Part shown: positions 1 to 45,778 of the stretch, piece by piece
How the letters are laid out: each line of letters begins with the position of its first letter
Position numbering within the stretch: position 1 is the stretch's first letter
Assembly: GCA_036925085.1 (NCBI GenBank)
Contig: JAUPFP010000014.1
Location: 3,661,501-3,725,500, forward strand
Length of the DNA: 64,000 bases
From: Brachycybe producta
Taxonomy: Eukaryota > Arthropoda > Diplopoda > Playtdesmida > Andrognathidae
Reading direction: 5' to 3'
Position numbers and translations under genes: made by a program
Notes under the pieces: model-generated
The model's input: the letters and a program-made list of their open reading frames with translations, nothing else
Database searches by the model: none
What the model was told of the DNA's origin: nothing

Positions 1-2258
1 GTGCTACTGCTACTAACCGTCATTGTATTGACCCCCGAACTTTATGGTAAGTGTCTCGTAAAGATAGATTTCCAGGCTTCAATAATGAATCAAAATAATT
101 TTCTCTTCTCTAAATGAAGCACACCAACATCCTAAATGTTACACTTTCAAAAACCTCTGTGATCCCAAGAAATTCTCCAACAGTAAATTTCGAAATGACC
201 ACTGTCAGGCTGAATGTATTGTAGAGGACTTTCGTTTTGGAAAATGTGATGATAACAGTAGATTATGTTGTTGTTCCGATAAACAAACAGAGGGTCACAC
301 ATCTCATTCCGGAAAATCTAGTCTGCATGAAAAAACACAAGGTTATGCCACTGGAAATTTACAAATTACCAAATTGGGAAAGGCTGAGAATGTCAGACAC
401 CGAAACTCGGAAACATCTTCTGAAAAGTCGAGTATATCATCCAATCCCTCGAGAACGTCAGTTCGCTCTGACTCGGCACAGTCTCTAGCAGCCGTACGCC
501 ATGGAACATCATCGCAAACTGTGCCTTCTAGGCAGTCCAGTATAATATCATCCCATCCTTCAAGCGATACAAGCAGCAAGACGGCCACCGAACTTTATGG
601 TAAGTGTCTCGTATAGATTGATTTCGAGGCTTCAATAATGAATCAAAATATTTTTCTTTTCTCTAAATGAAGCACGCCAAGATCCTAAATGTTACACTTT
701 CGAAAACCTCTGTGATCCCAAGAAATTCTCCAACAGTAAATTTCGAAATGACCACTGTCAGGCTGAATGTATTGTAGAGAACTTTCGTTTTGGTACATGT
801 GATGATGGCAGTAGATTATGTTGTTGTTCCGATAAACAAACAGAGGGTCACACATCTCATTCCAGACAATCTAGTCTGCATGAAAAAACACATGGTTACG
901 CCATTGGAAATTCGCAAATTGCCAAAACCGGAAAGGCTGAGAATGTCAGACACCGAAACTCGGAAACATCTTCTGAAGAGTCGAGTATACCATTCAATCC
1001 CTCGAGAACTTCAGTTCGCTCTGACTCGGCACAGTCTCTAGCAGGAGTACGCCATGGAACATCATCGCAAACACGTCCTGAAGAGTCGAGTTTAGATCTA
1101 TCATATAATCCCTCGAGAACGTCAGTTCACTCTGACTCGGCACAGTCTCTAGCAGGAATACGCCATAGAACATCACCGCAAACTGTACCTTCTAGGCAGT
1201 CCAGTATAATATCATCCCATCCTTCAAGCGACACAAGCAGTAGGACGGCAGTCGATACTGATTCAGTATATTCCAGAGAAACAAAAAGCCATGGCAAAAC
1301 GTTGATATCGCCTTCTAGGCCGGCCTCTATATCTGCCGACACATCTCGGTCCTCTATACCATCCGATCCATACCGGTCCTCTATACCATCCGATCCATAC
1401 CGGTCCTCTATATCTTCCGATCCATATCAGCCCTCTATACCTTCCGGCACATCTCGGTCCTCTATATCTTCTGATTCATCTCGGTCCTCTATACCATCCG
1501 ATCCATACCGGTCCTCTATACCTTCCAATCCATATCGGTCCTCTACATCTTCCGATCCATATCAGCCCTCTATACCTTCCGGCACATCTCGGTCCTCTGT
1601 ATATTCCGATTCATCTCAGTCCTCGCAGAAAAATTCGTTTGATTTGAAATCAGGCCCTCGAAATCCCAGTAAAGAAATGAAGACAGAATATTATACCAAT
1701 TCTGACGTCCATCAATCGAAAAGACCCTCTTCACAATACAGTTCATCATCCGATTCTAGACCAACATCCATTTCTATGGAAGGAACCTCAATGAATGATG
1801 TTTCCCATTCGGATAACTCTGCACGGCCTAGAAATTCTGGAACACCATCTAGGCACTCCAGCATATCGTCAATTAATTCTTTACGGGAAAATCAAAATGA
1901 CAACAGATTCTCAGGACAACGTACTGCACATATGTCTGGCACTAAAAAGAAAAGCGAACATGCTGAGATCACACACGATTGGACGTGTACTGAAGAAAAT
2001 ATTTGCAAGAGTCGAGAAGGTACTCTTGAAAGTGATGAAATGATTCTTCCTTTTAAGTACAAAAAATGCAACCGTTTTTGCAAAAAAGAAGGCTACCGGT
2101 CAGGAAAATGTGAGGATTTTAAATGCTGTTGTTCGAAAACTTCCGATGCTGGCGACAAACACGAAAAAGCGTCCAAAAAACAAGAAAAAGCGTACAAAAA
2201 ACAAAAAAAAGCGAACGAAAAACAGCAGTCGCGTAAGAAAAGCAATGCGGCAAAATGA
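1..2258 (+). CDS. Gene A: secreted protein with three defensin-like modules and Ser-rich linkers (5' partial)
   Basis: Exons 1-46 (partial), 120-599 and 673-2258; both introns are 73 bp, phase 1, GT-AG. About 703 residues are visible. Exon 1 encodes the hydrophobic end of a signal peptide (VLLLLTVIVLTPELYG), so the start codon lies upstream. Three cysteine modules follow, at 137-274, 690-827 and 1986-2132, with the framework C-x(5-6)-C-xn-C-x3-C-x9-C-x(4-6)-CCC. A Gly two residues before the fifth Cys (FGKC, FGTC, SGKC) matches the defensin gamma-core GxC. Modules 1 and 2 are nearly identical; module 3 is divergent and close to the C-terminus. Between them are Ser/Arg/Pro-rich linkers, and the C-terminus is Lys-rich (repeated KKQEKA-like motifs). 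Role inferred: secreted antimicrobial or structural/adhesive protein. The framework is seen; the function is not shown. Stop TGA at 2256. Confidence 0.75.
1347..1616 (+). repeat. 27-bp coding repeat, two copies of a five-unit block (gene A)
   Basis: Ten tandem 9-residue units of the type RSSIPSDPY are arranged as two successive five-unit blocks. In each block the order is two RSSIPSDPY-like units, an RSS(I/T)SSDPY unit, QPSIPSGTS, and an RSS(I/V)xSDSS unit. The matching order shows that a 135-bp block was duplicated after the 27-bp unit had amplified. Confidence 0.85.
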
Positions 2259-4264
2259 AAAATGGAAATTCACAAAATGCCCAAATAATTGTCAATTACG
2301 AAGCCCCCATTTTTCTGTTTTTATTTTTCTATTTGTTAACTGAATTCATTACAACTTCATTTGTTCAAATAAATGTAATGCAAAACCACGTTAATTGTAA
2401 GAATTCAAACACAAACAACCTATTGAGTTATCAATTATGTACAAATACATTTTTTATTGTTTAATAAATATGGCTCTCGACAGTCATTTACATTGTATTA
2501 CATTTACCATTATTGAATTTTGTTATTTTTTCACGAAAAACAATCTGTCCGAATGTATAAAACGTAAACAGCTAATAGCTTACATTGTTAGTAACAGTTC
2601 AACCAGATGGTAACCAGTAATTCAATAGAAAGATAGCTAACAATGTCTACGTGGATCGTAATGGAAAACTGCAACTGCGAAAAACATTAAGGCTTTGCAA
2701 TAAACGATGAAAGAACATAAAATGATGGCCGATACCAAAAGTAACTACTATGAAGGACAGTTTGAAACATCCGAAATGCAAGTTTACGAAATAATATCAG
2801 AAATAAAGAAACCCTGACTACAAAAATGGATAATCTGAAATGTCCGGTTGGTCAGAATTCAAAAACTAAATGGAAAACACAAAAAAAATGGCTCCTGGCT
2901 GAATAGCCCAATATAAATTTCTAATTCCATACTGGAATTAGCAAAAACAATCAAAAACAAAGAATTAATTAGACATAAAGTTATACTTGTTATGTCAACT
3001 TACAAGAAATCGCAAAATATCACCAAATGCAAATGTTCCACATGTTTGACACTAGCATTTTTTTGAAAATGTTAAAACATTATTAACTAATTTGGTTAAC
3101 TTGTGTCAAATCATGTGTGTTAATAAGTGATATCACCAAGGATATAGTTTGCAAGGTGTTCATAAAATTTTCAAAATTTTATGTGCAAAAAGCAGGTCTA
3201 CATCTAGCCAAATTTTGAGGGGGGAGGGGGCAAGCCAGAATTTTAGTGCTTCCGCATTGGCGTAAGAACTGCAGGGATCAACACTCTCAAAATTTAAAGC
3301 AACAGACAACTACCACTGCATGCTCTGCCGCTCTCACGTAGTATGCGCGCGCCTCTTCCCCAGGTCCAGGTTCCAGGAACAAATGTGTCCTCAATAAATA
3401 CGATGAATCCATGCATGCAAAAATTTCTCTAATTTTATGGAGTGGTCAATTCTACCCTAATATTATACTGTATTGCCTTGCAATATTTATTTGAAGTTGG
3501 TTCGGGGGGGGGGGGGGGGGGGGAAAGTAACATCCGGAAACAAAATGCGGGCCAGAGATGTCTGCAAAGGAAACGTGTCCAGGAACCATATGCTAGCTCC
3601 ACCTTTCGTTGTCAAAAAAAAAAAAACAAGCATCTAATTCACATGTTTGCTTTTTCCGAGAAGATTACATTCAATATGGGTAACACGTGTCAGTTTTTAG
3701 GAAAATCCCTATTATTATGCTACAAACCCCCCATTTAGAATTTAGATCCTTTAGAATTTCAAGTGTTTTCACCATTTTTTTTGTCGAAAAGTATAACTAA
3801 TTCTAGGTAATATCATCTGCAGTTTGTGTAATCGGTTAAGATGAAAAAACTACTCGGATTTTGTAATTTACATTTTAGTTTAAAATATAAGTTTATGGTG
3901 TTTTTCAATTTTCATTATATGAACCTCCCTGCAATGACGTAGGCTAACTTATACGAAAGTAACGATGACCTTTAAAAAAGTCACTTTGTGACAAATGTTG
4001 AAACACGAAAAGTACACGTAAAGTTCGCAAACTGTGCACCTGCACCAATTCGAAAAGACGTCATAAGACCTACGTCAACTTATTTCTTGTTACCAACGTA
4101 CCCGGTACTGTAAATATAATAGGAAGTTTGACTACTTGACAAACACAAAGGATTTTAGCACTGCAGCATACAAGCTCGTGTTACTCGACTGTCCTAGAAA
4201 ACAACTCAAATTACGAACAAAAATACGCTAATAAGACATTAGTTTATTCTTTGTGCCTGTTACC
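2259..4264. other. Spacer between gene A and gene B
   Basis: No supported gene. It holds the gene A 3' region, an isolated TATAAAA at 2556-2562 with no ORF behind it, a 20-base poly(G) run at 3504-3523, and the probable gene B promoter. Upstream of gene B a GACGTCAT motif, like an ATF/CREB site, lies near 4058. Confidence 0.5.
2463..2468 (+). promoter_or_regulatory. Candidate poly(A) signal of gene A
   Basis: AATAAA about 205 bases after the gene A stop codon. A second AATAAA lies at 2368-2373. Either could serve; there is no transcript evidence. Confidence 0.4.
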
Positions 4265-5893
4265 ATGACTGGTTATTTAACTTATGTCGTGATTTTGGCT
4301 CTTCCTTTTGTTCTCGTCTACGTAGTCAACCAAACACATGGTTCGTATGACAAATCCCTTTTCTTCTTGCGATTTGCGAAAAAAAAATACTGTAATTTGC
4401 GCTCTTTTAACATGTAGCACTACCATGGAAAGATGTGATCATCTCAGAACGAGGAGTAGGCAAATTAGCCTGCAAAACCTATTTACCAATCTGTAATCCT
4501 GAAACAGCTAAAACTAATGACGAGGACATCATGAATAAAAATTGTGTACATGCTTGTGACAACGACAACAGGAAATTTGGAATGTGTCGAAAGGGACGTT
4601 GCTGTTGTTCGTTGCAACACAAGAAGAAGAAGAGGAAGAAGGACAAGAAAAAGCACAAAGAAGAAGGTGAAGGCAAGAATAAAGAAACTAAAAGCAAGAA
4701 AAAGAAGAATTCGAATCAAAGCACAACTGGAATAGACAAGAAGAGCGACTCTGGAAGGAGTGGAACCCACTCGGAACCAAGAAGTCAGTCACCACATAAT
4801 CCCGATGACATGAAAAGTACATCTGGACAAAGTTCGGCACACTCGGCACCTAGAAGCCAATCACCATTTGATGGTGACGATGATGATGATGCCAAAAGTA
4901 CATCTGGACATAGTTCGGTACACTCGGCACCTAGAAGCCAGTCACCGTTTGATGGTGATGATGATGATGCCAAAAGTACATCTGGACATAGTTCGGCACA
5001 CTCGGCACCTAGAAGCCAATCACCGTTCGATGGTGATGATGATGATGATGCCAAAAGTACATCTGGACAAAGTTCGGTACATTCGGCACCTAGAAGCCAA
5101 TCACCGTTCGATGGTGATGATGATGATGCCAAAAGTACATCTGGAAAAAGTTCGGTACACTCGGCACCTAGAAGCCAATCACCGTTCGATGGTGATGATG
5201 ATGATGCCAAAAGTACATCTGGACATAGTTCGGCACACTCGGCACCTAGAAGCCAATCACCGTTCGATGGTGATGATGATGATGCCAAAAGTACATCTGG
5301 ACATAGTTCGGCACACTCGGCACCTAGAAGCCAATCACCGTTCGATGGTGATGATGATGATGCCAAAAGTACATCTGGACAAAGTTCGGTACATTCGGCA
5401 CCTAGAAGCCAATCACCGTTTGATGGTGATGCCGAAAGTACATCTGGTCATAGTTCGGCACACTCGGCACCTAGAAGCCAGTCACCGTTTGATGGTGATG
5501 ATGATGATGACAAAAGTACATCTGGAAAAAGTTCAGTACATTCGGCACCTCGAAGCCAGTCACCGTTCGATGGTGATGGTGATGCAAAAAGTACATCTGG
5601 ACGTAGTTCGGTACATTCGGCACCTAGAAGCGAGGGACCATTTGATGACGATGGTGTCAGTACAAGGCATTCATCGCAAAGTTCTTCTAGTGGTAAAAGC
5701 AGCAAATCTAGCAAAAAACAATCTGATGCTGGAAAAAGTAGTTCCGATCAGAAATCATTTCAAAATTCAATTAATAGTAAAAAAGGTAAAGGGCAACACG
5801 ATGACGACGACGATGACTATTTGTCCATTCTGACGCATACGGACATTCCGCCATCGGTGATAAACAGATATAACAGCAAAAGTAGTAGTAGTG

Positions 5894-5949
<56 letters not shown>

Positions 5950-6126
5950 CACAGTAGTAAGAGTGGTGGTAGTACTAGTAAAAGTAGTAGTAGTAGTGGT
6001 AAAAGTGGACAATCAAAATTAAGTTCCCACAGTAGCCATTCCAAAAAAAGAAGACGACGAAGAAAAAAGTCCAAAAACGGAGATGCCCTTACGGAAGAAA
6101 ACCTGAAACGCTTCAATTCGTTGTAA
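4265..6126 (+). CDS. Gene B: secreted defensin-module protein with acidic Ser repeats, poly-Ser and basic tail
   Basis: Exon 1 is 4265-4340 and exon 2 is 4418-6126; the 77-bp intron is phase 1. The product is about 594 aa. Exon 1 encodes a clean signal peptide (MTGYLTYVVILALPFVLVYV...), splitting the same kind of Gly codon as in gene A. One cysteine module (4471-4608) has spacing C-x6-C-x16-C-x3-C-x9-C-x4-CCC with gamma-core GMC. Then come a Lys-rich stretch, a 12-unit acidic/Ser repeat (4740-5660), a poly-Ser tract from an AGT microsatellite, and a basic C-terminus with RRRRRKK. The module and gene structure make it a paralogue of gene A. The polyampholyte tail suggests a matrix, mucus or mineral-associated role, or a defensin fused to a carrier; this is inference. 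Other families with six to eight Cys cannot be fully excluded. Confidence 0.8.
4740..5660 (+). repeat. 78-bp coding minisatellite, about 12 units
   Basis: Tandem units of roughly 26 codons carry STSG(H/Q/K)SS(A/V)H, SAPRSQSPFDG and a run of two to five Asp. The Asp-run length varies by GAT slippage. The first unit (SDSGRSGTH...) and the last (ending SEGPFDDDG) are the most divergent, as expected at array edges. The repeat keeps frames open on the other strand too, giving a spurious 193-codon antisense ORF. Confidence 0.9.
5878..6003 (+). repeat. AGT trinucleotide microsatellite coding poly-Ser
   Basis: Long run of AGT codons with occasional GGT, ACT and AAA, giving poly-Ser with scattered Gly, Thr and Lys. 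It is in frame in gene B. Length variation between individuals is expected. Confidence 0.9.
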
Positions 6127-15104: not shown

Positions 15105-18100
15105 ATGGTTTTCGGTCGTTCAATTCGAAAGATTCCTGGTCCTTTTGCAGTTCCGCTTCTCGGCACCGCCTGGACCTACTTACCACTTGTCGGTACGGAT
15201 CAAAGGAGGTATACTTTCGAGTAGGAGCTGCTAGCCTCAAAGCAAAGGCTTTGAAGCTGTATACGCTCTTACATAGAGGCTAAATAGCTCCTAGTCGAAG
15301 GAATATACAATAAATGTAATGATACGAGAGCTTCTTTCGTACTACTTATATAGGTTCAGATACGACGAAATGTCTTCACGAAAGTTACAAGAGGAAGTTT
15401 CTGAAGTACGGAAAGATAGTGAGGGAAATTGTGGCCGGTAAAGAGATTGTTTCCGTCTACGATCCCAAGGACATGGAGACGGTTTATCATAACGAAGGGA
15501 AATGGCCGCAGAGGATTAGTCATGAGGTTTTGTTGGCTGTCAGAAGAGAATATTCAGATCTGTATTCGTCGGGTGGAATCGTGCCTACGTACGAATTATA
15601 TACAATCACTCTTTGTTATATGTTTTCGTTTTAAAGCATAAATAACGTCGGAACTTCATTTATTTATAACAGTAATGGTGAGGAATGGGCAAATCTTCGA
15701 AGTTCCTTTCAGAAGGAGATCAGCCGACCTTCGATTATCGCTCAATACGGTCCGGTTATCGAACAAACTTCTCGCGAATTTATCGACTATCTGGTTAAAT
15801 CTCGTGATTCGGAATTTGTCGTTCCGGATATGATCTACAAGATGCACGAATGGGCGCTCGAAAGTATAATTAATAGAAAAGACAATGTTTCTTCTTCTTC
15901 TCATTCTGATGTTTCATCTTAGATGTTTGCATCACCGTTCTCGATACGAGACTCGATCGGTTTGGTCCTCGTAGGAATCCGATGTGTCGAGATCTCATCG
16001 AAGGAGGAAAGAAGTTCCTTAATGCTCTTAATGATGCCGAACATTTTCCTTTTTGGCGTCTTTATAAGACTAAAGCTTATAAGACGGTTGCGGAAAAGGA
16101 ACTATTTTTTTACGAGTAAGAATTTTTATTCTTTCGTAAGTGGATGTAAAAGATATTTTTTTTATAAAAATGAACTGTTTGTTTCAGTTTGAAAAGAAAA
16201 AAAATGCTGAAAAAAAAATGGCGACGTTTTTCAAGAAACGTCGGATGAAATATAATTTTGATGTATTTCTTTTTTGTTGTTGTTGTTGAAAGATTTGCAA
16301 AAGTCCACGTCGAAAAGAAACTTCGTACGTTGGACGATGTGACGAGAAACGATGAAAGTGGAAGTGTTTTGGAGAAATATCTTAAAAATACTAAGAACGA
16401 TCTTCGTGATGTCATAACAATGGCTTCAGATCTCGTTTTCGCAGGACTTCTAACGGTATTTTCATCCTTTTAACGGTTGATTTTGCAAACTTTTATTTAT
16501 TATGCAGTTTCAGAAGAGCAACACTATGGAAAAATTGGAAGTGTTTTTAGAAACTAAGAGTGGTAGCTGAATCACTTAATACTATTTTTATGTTGATATC
16601 TTTCAAAATAAACTTTTATAGAATAAAAAATTAAATATGTATCGTTTGCTTGAAGTTGGGTCATTTTCAAACTAACATAAAAAGTTTATTTTGAAAGATA
16701 TCAACATTAAAATACCCTCAAGTGATTGAGCTACCCCTTCTAGTTTCTAAAACACTTTCTAGTTTTTTTTTTATTTTGCTCTTCTCAAAGACAGAAATAA
16801 CCAGAAGGTCGAGGTTGCATTTATACTTTAAAAGGACTTCAAGTGCGAGGTTTTCTGTGTTTTCAGACAGCTTTTACGATGAGTTTCGTTCTCTATCATT
16901 TGTCTCGTAACGTTGACGTTCAAGAGAAGTTGTTCGTTGAGATTCGTAGTCACTTAATTGATGACCGTCCTCTCGACGTTTCGCTTTTCGGTGCTATGAA
17001 GTATTTAAAGGCTTGCATCAAGGAAAGTCTAAGGTTGAATCCGATAGCGTTGGGAACCGGACGGGTGCTTACGAACGAGGTCGTTCTGTCCGGACACCAC
17101 ATTCGACCTGGAGTGCGTCTTTACACTTGTCTTTTTTTTCTCCTCGAAGAAACAATTTTGACACATTTTATGTTTATTCGTACTACAGACCATCATACTG
17201 ACGCAAAATGAAGTTTCTAGTAAACTGGACGAGTTCGTTTCCGATCCACTGAGTTTCCGTCCGGAACGTTGGTTACGAGATTTAGACGAGAGACGTCGGA
17301 TTCATCCGTATCTCGTTTTACCCTTCGGAACCGGGCCGAGATCTTGTATCGGACGTCGTTTTGCTGAACTAGAAATGTACATCTTTCTAAGTCTGGTTTG
17401 TACCCAAGTTTATTTCTTTACTTTTCCTAATTTATTTATCATTTTCGACGGGAACTTTAAAATAATCTTTCAAGATTTATTTGAAACTAGAAGAGTAGAA
17501 ACGAATTTGTACAGATTGGCCTATTTTGTGAAATTTATGAGTATATTTCTTTTTAAATGCTGTGATAATGCCTCATGAGGGCTCATTGGACCTCAGAAAT
17601 CCTTAAAACCTTGAAAAATTACTAAGTTTCAATAATTTTTAAAATTCAAGAAATGGGCGGGAAAATAATCTAATCTAATAGAATTTGCTTTCTTTAAAAA
17701 AAGCCGCCTAAAATCGAAAGAAATATGAATGCACAGGTAGTCCTAAAATGCCTCAGGAGGGCGCAGCTGGCCCCAGGAATCTCAAAAAGCTTAAAGTACA
17801 AATGTTAAAGATTTTTTTTAACATATTCAACAAAAGAATATGAATGGAAATGAAATCTTTGCTTTTTTTCCTTCAAAAAAACGGCCAAAAGTCGAAAAAC
17901 GCGCCTTGAAACGGGCGCTCACAAACGAGTGACTTTTAATGGTTGATATGGAGTGCAAAAAAGTGGTTTGCATGTGGCTGAAACCGACCACTCGAGTCGA
18001 CTCTATACAATCACTTTTTTGTAGTTCATTCAACTATATTAGGACCACTTCTCAACCACTGGCATTCGACTCTTATGGTCCACTTTTTACAGTACATCTC

Positions 18101-44690: not shown

Positions 44691-45149
44691 GTTTACACTG
44701 TAAAAACCAAGTTAGGTTTAAAAAAAAGAACTCAATTCAAATGTCGACCTAGAAAGCTGGTAATGTATTTCCTTCAATATATTTTCCCCGGTGCTATTCT
44801 TCCTGACTGATCCTGATCCTACGAGGGCCCTTCATAAATATGATAATCGTTGCCGCATTTACCAGAACTTTTTTCTCTCTCTGTCTCTCTTTTTCTCTAT
44901 ATATCTCTCTATTTCTCTCTCTCTCTGTCTCTCTTTTTTCTCTAGAGGATTTGCACCTATTTTCAAATTTAAATGAGTTTTGTGGTTGGTGCATGGTCGG
45001 TATTATCATTTCAACGTGCGACGACCATTACTCTCTTTTTTCATCTCCTTTACAAGTATATATTTATCGTGAATTTTTCACGATATTTCTTACTTTGTAA
45101 AAAAGGGGCGAAACAACTTTGTTGGAAGTTACTTTCAACTGCTCCTAGA

Positions 45150-45778
45150 AGGTAGGCAATCAAACATAACACCAATGTAATGCTAGATTGCCAACTTTTA
45201 TTAAAGGCTGCATTGCAGTTACTGCCCCTTGATGATAGGCAATCAAACATAACATGAATGCAATGCTAGATTACCAATGTTTAACAGCGGCAGCATTGCA
45301 GTTACTGTCTCTTTATGTTAGGCAATCAAGCATAACACCAATGTAATGCTAGATTGCCCACTTTCATCAACGGTTGTATTGCAGTTACTGCCCCTTGATG
45401 ATAGGCAATCAAACATAACATGAATGCAATGCTAGATTATCAATGTTTAACAGCGGCAGCATTGCAGTTACTGTCCCTTTATGTTAGGCAATCAAGCATA
45501 ACACCAATGTAATGCTAGATTGCCCACTTTCATCAACGGTTGTATTGCAGTTACTGCCCCTTGAAGTTTAGTAATCAAACATAACAAAAGTGTAATGCTA
45601 GATTGCAACTTTTATCAAAGGTTGTAGTGTAGTTACTGCCCCTTAATGTTAGGCAATCAAACATAACACGACTGCAATGCTAGATTACCAACTTTTAACA
45701 GAGGCAGCATTGAAAGTACTGCCCCTACTTGACAGGCAATCAAACATAGCATTGATGTAATGCTTTATTAAACATCTG
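45150..45778 (+). repeat. 84-bp satellite, alternating unit types
   Basis: Seven full and one partial unit start AGGCAATCAAACATAACA. Type A has CCAATGTAATGCTAGATTGCC and type B TGAATGCAATGCTAGATTACC (middle base shown as in sequence); both close with GCAGTTACTGYCYCTT. Order A-B-A-B-A then more diverged units, so a dimer of about 168 bp is the recent amplification unit. Confidence 0.85.

Follow-up and report, generated by a model that had tools for sequence, protein, structure and literature searches.

Predicted defensin-fold heads on long serine-rich chains in a tandemly expanded gene family of the diplopod Brachycybe producta

Two neighboring genes, here called A and B, open a stretch of 64,000 nucleotides (the window) from contig C14 (JAUPFP010000014.1, 3661501-3725500) of the diplopod Brachycybe producta, whose genome comprises 295 Mb in 442 contigs. 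Both encode cysteine modules of the defensin type joined to long low-complexity chains, and together with their paralogs they make up a family with at least 18 modules and at least 13 gene copies, arranged in two clusters on contigs C14 and C11. The explanation that we consider probable, with some reservation, is a tandemly expanded family of secreted proteins in which defensin-fold heads sit on Ser-rich chains and function as binders. Gene models, family, predicted fold, and divergence pattern are described below; from them we infer secretion, disulfide pairing, chain disorder, and the binding role.

Structure of genes A and B

The ATG of gene A lies 9 nucleotides (nt) upstream of the window (C14:3661492), and the last 46 nt of its signal-peptide exon (1..46, plus strand, as are all features of both genes; MFAVLLLLTVIVLTPELY, then the first base of a codon interrupted by the intron) end at the phase-1 donor ATG/GTAAGT (the slash marks the exon border). 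Two introns, 47-119 and 600-672, both in phase 1, flank exon 2 (120..599, phase 1-1), which carries Cys module 1 (W1, 137..274; C-x6-C-x14-C-x3-C-x9-C-x6-CCC) followed by a Ser-rich linker, and the 3' end of which copies the last bases of the signal exon (GAACTTTATG/GTAAGT). Exon 3 (673..2258) encodes module 2 (W2, 690..827), a Ser-rich linker, module 3 (W3, 1986..2132; C-x5-C-x20-C-x3-C-x9-C-x4-CCC), a basic C-terminus, and the stop; 27-bp tandem repeats in the gene A linker (1324..1624) encode SSIPSDPYR-like units. The exon model is in frame (55 + 480 + 1586 nt = 2121 nt) and gives a protein of 706 amino acids (aa), of which the linker from module 2 to module 3 contains 28.8% Ser. All Cys residues (8 and 16 by exon) lie inside the modules, and linkers and tail are free of Cys.

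The signal-peptide exon of gene B (4265..4340; MTGYLTYVVILALPFVLVYVVNQTH, then the first base of an interrupted codon) ends at ATG/GTTCGT, a phase-1 donor of weak consensus. An alternative donor, GTATGA, is found four bases further on; it is in phase 2 and, in our reading, would put the gene B module out of frame with the acceptor at 4418. The phase-1 intron (4341-4417) ends at ATGTAG/CACTAC, the first among seven in-frame candidate acceptors, and the three junctions of genes A and B are thus alike (ATG/GT ... AG/CAC, intron phase 1). Exon 2 (4418..6126) encodes the Cys module (W4, 4471..4608; C-x6-C-x16-C-x3-C-x9-C-x4-CCC), a Lys-rich stretch, Asp/Ser repeats, poly-Ser, a basic C-terminus, and the stop. 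The Asp/Ser part contains a 78-bp tandem repeat of 10.6 copies (4813..5631), all 11 units of which are read in one frame as KSTSGxSSxHSAPRSQSPFDG plus Asp runs, and an AGT repeat (5881..6001) encodes mostly poly-Ser. This model is also in frame (76 + 1709 nt, 594 aa); all 8 Cys residues are in the module, and the tail behind it consists of 29.1% Ser, 13.1% Asp, and 10.1% Lys.

Hence, the original prediction of four Cys modules in two neighboring genes, with the common spacing C-x(5-6)-C-x(14-20)-C-x3-C-x9-C-x(4-6)-CCC, is confirmed, and the long low-complexity tails that it described are borne out by Cys-free Ser-rich chains of 385 aa in gene A and 505 aa in gene B. A slightly looser Cys pattern, searched in all six frames, had four matches in the window, compared to zero in each of 40 first-order Markov shuffles.

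A family in two clusters

The family was surveyed by a regular-expression scan and a hidden Markov model (HMM) scan of 212,107 bases, comprising the window, fetched loci, and the mitochondrial contig, with overlaps counted twice. The C14 cluster (~3639.7 to 3667.6 kb) contains A (three modules), B, U0, U1, N1, N2, N3, M1-3 (one gene with three modules), and M4; the C11 cluster (modules at ~3358 to 3395 kb) contains C11ab (two modules), C11c, C11d, and C11e. A single head is present in 10 of the 13 copies. Protein searches of the whole genome with five queries revealed no strong matches outside C14 and C11, and since such searches score the best candidates only, 13 copies is a lower bound. Two weak matches were rejected as further copies, one on contig C17 (E 0.13) because of internal stops and one on contig C22 (E 0.59) because it is an ordinary short exon of the defensin type that lacks CCC. 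The latter lies on the minus strand within C22:235923-239018 (locus L007) and reads GCRGLPKTPHCQTKCHKRGFKMGCKPHPRFCRCSNKQ, then a stop, with neither CCC nor tail (HMM E 0.001); the same genome may therefore hold plain defensins, too.

Cys 2 to 6, Cys 8, and the Gly of GxC are invariant in all 18 modules, and the first Cys is always present, 4 to 6 residues ahead of the second. CCC is found in 16 modules and CSCC in the other two (C11d and C11e), in which Cys 1 is kept and the odd Cys is shifted from the center of the motif to just behind it. The gap between Cys 4 and Cys 5 is 9 residues in 10 modules and 10 to 12 in the remaining 8. Exactly 8 Cys residues are present in 16/18 modules; M2 and M3 have 9 each, and the open reading frame (ORF) of C11c also encodes a ninth Cys, ahead of the acceptor sites of that copy. 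The earlier suggestion that the two Cys residues additional to a six-Cys frame form a fourth disulfide gains some support from the 8-Cys modules and from the shift in C11d and C11e, but the M1-3 ORF, with 27 Cys residues in total, one of them between modules, is at odds with simple pairing inside each module.

In 11/13 copies, the Cys exon is preceded by a signal exon that ends at a phase-1 donor and by one or more in-frame acceptors, so that the signal exons predicted to precede the Cys exons are borne out by gene structure, as far as this is predicted from sequence. Several acceptors fit in the copies with long linkers, and the acceptor AAATGAAG/C is common to A, U0, N2, and N3. N1 has a signal peptide, and a recognized donor was not found behind it. 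In U1, a convincing signal exon was not found and an in-frame stop follows just past the module; on these grounds, U1 is probably a pseudogene. With U1 left out, 8 of the 12 upstream regions contain TATAWAW no more than 200 nt from the ATG (shuffle mean, 2.2; none of 200 shuffles reached 8), and in A, U0, N2, and N3 it is located at -118 to -122. This frequency suggests strong expression of the family genes.

By eye, the tails of C11ab (L009:4316-5212), C11d (L010:3655-4176), and, more weakly, C11c (L022:239-874) are similar in a C-terminal block around QYEARIEANKRKSS and LVSHFEEIGNRA, which may be a folded or binding motif.

Predicted fold and nearest relatives

In agreement with the cysteine-stabilized alpha-beta (CS-alpha-beta) topology that had been proposed for the module at 4471-4608, structure prediction with AlphaFold2 gave strand, helix, and two strands in both modules modeled. 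Module 1 (9 sequences) has E4-6, H20-33, E38-42, and E47-51, with a predicted local distance difference test (pLDDT) score of 82.1 and a predicted template modeling (pTM) score of 0.63; the gene B module (18 sequences) has E4-6, H22-35, E40-44, and E47-51, with a pLDDT of 76.5 and a pTM of 0.56. Foldseek returned 65 matches in the PDB for module 1 and 83 for the gene B module (E ≤ 10). By title, the best 50 of each are nearly all defensins, scorpion toxins, and cystine-dense peptides; the exceptions among the matches listed are Blo t 19 for both modules and brazzein and one plant-pathogen effector for module 1, and Blo t 19 and brazzein we take to be CS-alpha-beta proteins as well. The best probabilities are 0.96 (module 1) and 0.92 (gene B module), with plant defensins leading for module 1 and kaliotoxin for the gene B head.

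A profile search of PDB sequences (E ≤ 10) gave 55 matches to defensins, thionins, related antimicrobial peptides, and venom or designer toxins, and a profile of all 18 modules gave 67 matches (best E, 2.3e-5), of which the best 60 were examined. Vertebrate beta-defensins, presumably of another fold, account for one match in the first search and at least two in the second. Top matches of the 55 are TPP3 (E 1.7e-4) and then 8gxt (6.4e-4), identified as mehamycin in the excerpt of PMC9751787.

The HMM comparison with CS-alpha-beta families that had been proposed also yielded defensin families, with PF24552 (Defensin-like) the best Pfam family for most modules. The gene A exon 3 ORF (28.5 bits) and the C11ab ORF (35 bits) exceed its cut-off of 27 bits, the M1-3 ORF (20.2 bits) lies below it, and the gene B and N3 ORFs gave no match at E ≤ 0.1. 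Among single modules, 12/18 match PF24552 at E ≤ 1, with 25.8 bits as the best score of the 8 tested first. PF01097 (Defensin_2, the model for arthropod defensins, cut-off 20.4) stays below its threshold, with 3/18 modules at E ≤ 1 and a best match of 17.2 bits (E 0.0049), and so does PF00304 (Gamma-thionin, the model for plant defensins, cut-off 25.1), with 12/18 modules at E ≤ 1 and a best match of 19.3 bits (E 0.0014). Macins resemble these modules in an extra N-terminal Cys about six residues ahead of the next. Hydramacin-1 (2k35) is a weak profile match (E 0.25, and 0.19 with the 18-module profile), and membership in the macins is ruled out, with no Pfam Macin match for 8 modules at E ≤ 10 or for 18 modules at E ≤ 1.

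Together with the predicted topology and the PDB matches, C-x3-C, G-x-C, and C-x-C in 18/18 modules place the heads in the CS-alpha-beta superfamily, and we are highly confident of this fold class and of the family membership. Of the proposed kinship with defensins, the topology and the defensin-family matches are supported. As nearest family, the six-Cys arthropod defensins are ruled out by the Pfam scores; as judged from the profiles, the nearest kin are 8-Cys plant- and drosomycin-type defensins, with PF24552 as the closest model.

Duplication and divergence

Modules 1 and 2 of gene A are identical in 457 of 488 bases (94%) and, from their alignment, are the product of a tandem duplication; the duplicated block begins in the last part of the signal exon, includes the intron, and reaches into the linker. 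The two introns differ at 5 of 73 positions, and the shared exon has a nonsynonymous divergence (dN) of 0.066 and a synonymous divergence (dS) of 0.067. Among module pairs, dN/dS is 0.8 to 1.0 in C11a/C11e, N1/N2, C11d/C11e, and N2/U0 and 1.5 to 1.7 in C11a/C11b (0.50/0.33) and N2/N3 (0.32/0.19).

N2 and U0 are nearly identical in the signal exon (62/64), in the intron plus first linker (219/224), and in the 3' flank (282/303), and diverged in the later linker (137/185) and the module (100/162). Synonymous differences in the module (12.7 of 32.5 sites, rounded to 13/33) exceed the differences of every kind in the signal exon, the intron, the first linker, and the 3' flank together (28/591; Fisher p 1.4e-8, with the later linker, 48 differences in 185, left out of the test). 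From this comparison, head and later linker appear as an island of divergence, with young or converted flanks on either side. This block comparison excludes N3/U0 and N1/N2, which were counted in other coordinates. C11a and C11d are 77% and 70% identical in the two 100-column blocks that cover the head, and 88, 92, 81 (27 bases), 77 (57 bases), 93, and 89% identical in the tail blocks that follow; C11d/C11e show 92 and 82% over the head, then 87 to 96%. Heads are more diverged than tails in some paralog pairs only.

Proposed function and alternative explanations

In our model, each protein would start with a signal peptide, be secreted, and carry one to three 8-Cys CS-alpha-beta heads on a long Ser-rich chain that is expected to be disordered. 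The head would fold with four disulfides, with C2-C5, C3-C6, and C4-C8 as the core by analogy and C1 paired with the odd Cys in CCC. The hydrophilic chain may space the heads and anchor them in an extracellular secretion or surface layer, where the heads may recognize a microbial, host, or prey surface or protein. Head diversification would combine the duplication of genes and exons with a conversion-like patchwork and with changes of amino acids. This functional part is put forward tentatively.

Several findings weigh against this explanation. Six of nine paralog pairs have a module dN/dS of 0.8 to 1.7, but these are point estimates from small counts; dN/dS is 0.64 in N3/U0 and ~0.3 in W1/U1 and W2/U1, and in W1/W2 the head is less diverged than the linker (dN 0.045 versus 0.071). 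The N2/U0 module is diverged at synonymous sites, too (12.7 of 32.5), and therefore, flank conversion or module replacement must be involved, and amino-acid selection alone is insufficient as an explanation. In N2/N3, the head is not more diverged (module, 121/158; intron plus first linker, 151/217; 3' flank, 110/239), which favors a patchwork over a general rule. Furthermore, the Foldseek E-values are weak (best, 0.23 and 0.17; none ≤ 0.001), and gene B matched no defensin model in the Pfam scans. Non-Cys identity between subfamilies is 2 to 24%, with U1/C11c (36%) as the sole exception; W4 reaches at most 18% with any other module, and gene B is thus linked to the family by Cys frame, gene structure, and position. 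The odd Cys number of the M1-3 ORF is a poor fit to simple pairing within modules, head net charge is -1 to +5, and NF-kB-type sites are not enriched (one site in the 12 upstream regions, each of 600 nt; shuffle mean, 0.34).

Some of these points bear on a conventional antimicrobial precursor, in which the tail is a disposable pro-region and proteolysis releases short microbe-killing defensins. The fold and family matches fit it, as does the basic run KKKKRKKDKKK after the gene B head, and the matched nematode relative mehamycin is antibacterial according to the excerpt of PMC9751787. We nevertheless regard it as unlikely: no common cleavage motif is seen by eye (no scan was made) beside the gene A modules, the net charge of the heads is low, NF-kB enrichment is missing upstream, the paralogs in N2/U0 and C11a/C11d agree better in part of the tail than in the heads, and processing does not release active defensins from X-tox, a comparable rosary, as stated in the excerpt of PMC2728511.

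The same tails could themselves do the work in a structural, mineral, cuticle, or adhesive matrix, with the heads as disulfide-rich knots. Asp-run repeats, poly-Ser, and His/Asp/Glu runs would suit such a matrix, and gene A has heads close to both ends. However, the heads of N2/U0 and C11a/C11d vary more than parts of their tails, and the subfamilies have tails of very different composition, which gives no hint of a single matrix role common to all; this explanation, too, we hold to be improbable.

It is also imaginable that the diversified heads are venom or salivary effectors that act on ion channels or host proteins in the manner of scorpion toxins. The gene B head has its best fold match in kaliotoxin, and the signal exon of N2/U0 is conserved while the head has diverged. 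Yet a target cannot be read from a fold match, the leading matches of module 1 are plant defensins, and injected toxins are not known to have, as a rule, tails of hundreds of residues; we doubt that effectors of this kind are the answer. Finally, we give hardly any credence to an artefact in which low-complexity repeats merely happen to be open: the gene B repeat is open in other frames as well (339 and 220 aa), and 6 variable codon columns in its 11 units are synonymous-only and 6 change an amino acid, so that this repeat alone shows little coding constraint, but the Cys frame is conserved in 18 modules, signal exon and phase-1 splice sites in 11/13 copies, the reading frame in all 11 units, and the TATA position in four copies.

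Returning to heads as binders on Ser-rich chains, a more specific version of this explanation, possible though rather doubtful at present, is a defensin mucin: disordered and possibly glycosylated or phosphorylated chains would display fast-diversifying 8-Cys heads, conversion would keep carrier and flanks alike among paralogs, heads would be exchanged and altered, and the whole would form a panel of tethered binders. If true, one animal would possess binders, sometimes multivalent, for a surface layer, saliva, or venom, and the defensin fold would serve as a replaceable head on a polymer-like carrier. The copies would then be caught in the midst of change, with the 94%-identical intron-exon duplication in gene A and paralogs that are alike in signal exon, intron, and 3' flank and not in the head, and the gain of new targets by a defensin fold would become directly testable inside one genome.

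Other features

Between U0 and U1 (C14 ~3657.0-3658.7 kb; L008:2518-4196), open frames run on the minus strand; segment 3606-4196 matches Amidase (PF01425, E 5e-40), and segment 2518-2967 has no match at E ≤ 0.001. Within the window, two stretches of a cytochrome P450 gene (PF00067, E 2e-20 and 1e-16) are found at 16801-17578 on the plus strand, and an 83-bp tandem array of ~7.6 copies without relation to the defensin-like genes lies at 45138-45764. The mitochondrial contig reads with table 5 (invertebrate code), contains the cluster nad3-A-R-N-S1-E, a gene order of arthropods, and has cox2 directly after cox1 with no tRNA between, an arrangement that argues against an insect or a crustacean. 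Mitochondrial-type cox1 copies on the large contigs C1 (12697416-12698753, covering the whole family model) and C17 (4027703-4029047) are probably nuclear copies.

Comparison with known systems

The original prediction of an undescribed secreted family holds in part: multi-head defensins and defensins with low-complexity tails are already published, and the combination of CCC modules with tails of hundreds of residues was not found among the matches listed in the open-access literature. The X-tox family, reported only from Lepidoptera and with its antimicrobial function reported lost (excerpt of PMC2728511), resembles ours in having several defensin-like motifs per secreted protein; as far as that excerpt goes, it differs from our family, in which the Ser-rich chain runs to hundreds of residues and 10/13 copies carry a single head. 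Nasonin-2 and -6 of Nasonia have domain repeats from duplicated exons with phase-1 introns between, like W1/W2, but 4 to 5 domains, and a Ser-rich tail is not mentioned in the excerpt of PMC2853521. The pollen proteins Art v 1, Amb a 4, and Par h 1 combine a defensin head with a low-complexity tail, but they are plant proteins with a Pro-rich region and one defensin-like domain (excerpt of PMC5771466).

Closest are the ecdysozoan drosomycin, mehamycin (8gxt), and plant defensins (TPP3, 4uj0; NaD1), which share with our modules 8 Cys residues, an N-terminal strand followed by helix and two strands, C-x3-C, and GxC. According to the excerpt of PMC9751787, drosomycin-type genes of nematodes have two exons and one phase-1 intron, while Drosophila drosomycin is intronless; the family shares the phase-1 intron in 11/13 copies, and gene A differs by a second one. 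A further drosomycin-type trait is a fourth disulfide that joins the amino and carboxyl termini; among our modules, 16/18 have CCC and 2/18 have CSCC. What sets the family apart from drosomycin-type and plant defensins is the odd Cys inside or just after CxC, the long tails, up to three heads per protein, and a Gamma-thionin score below the cut-off.

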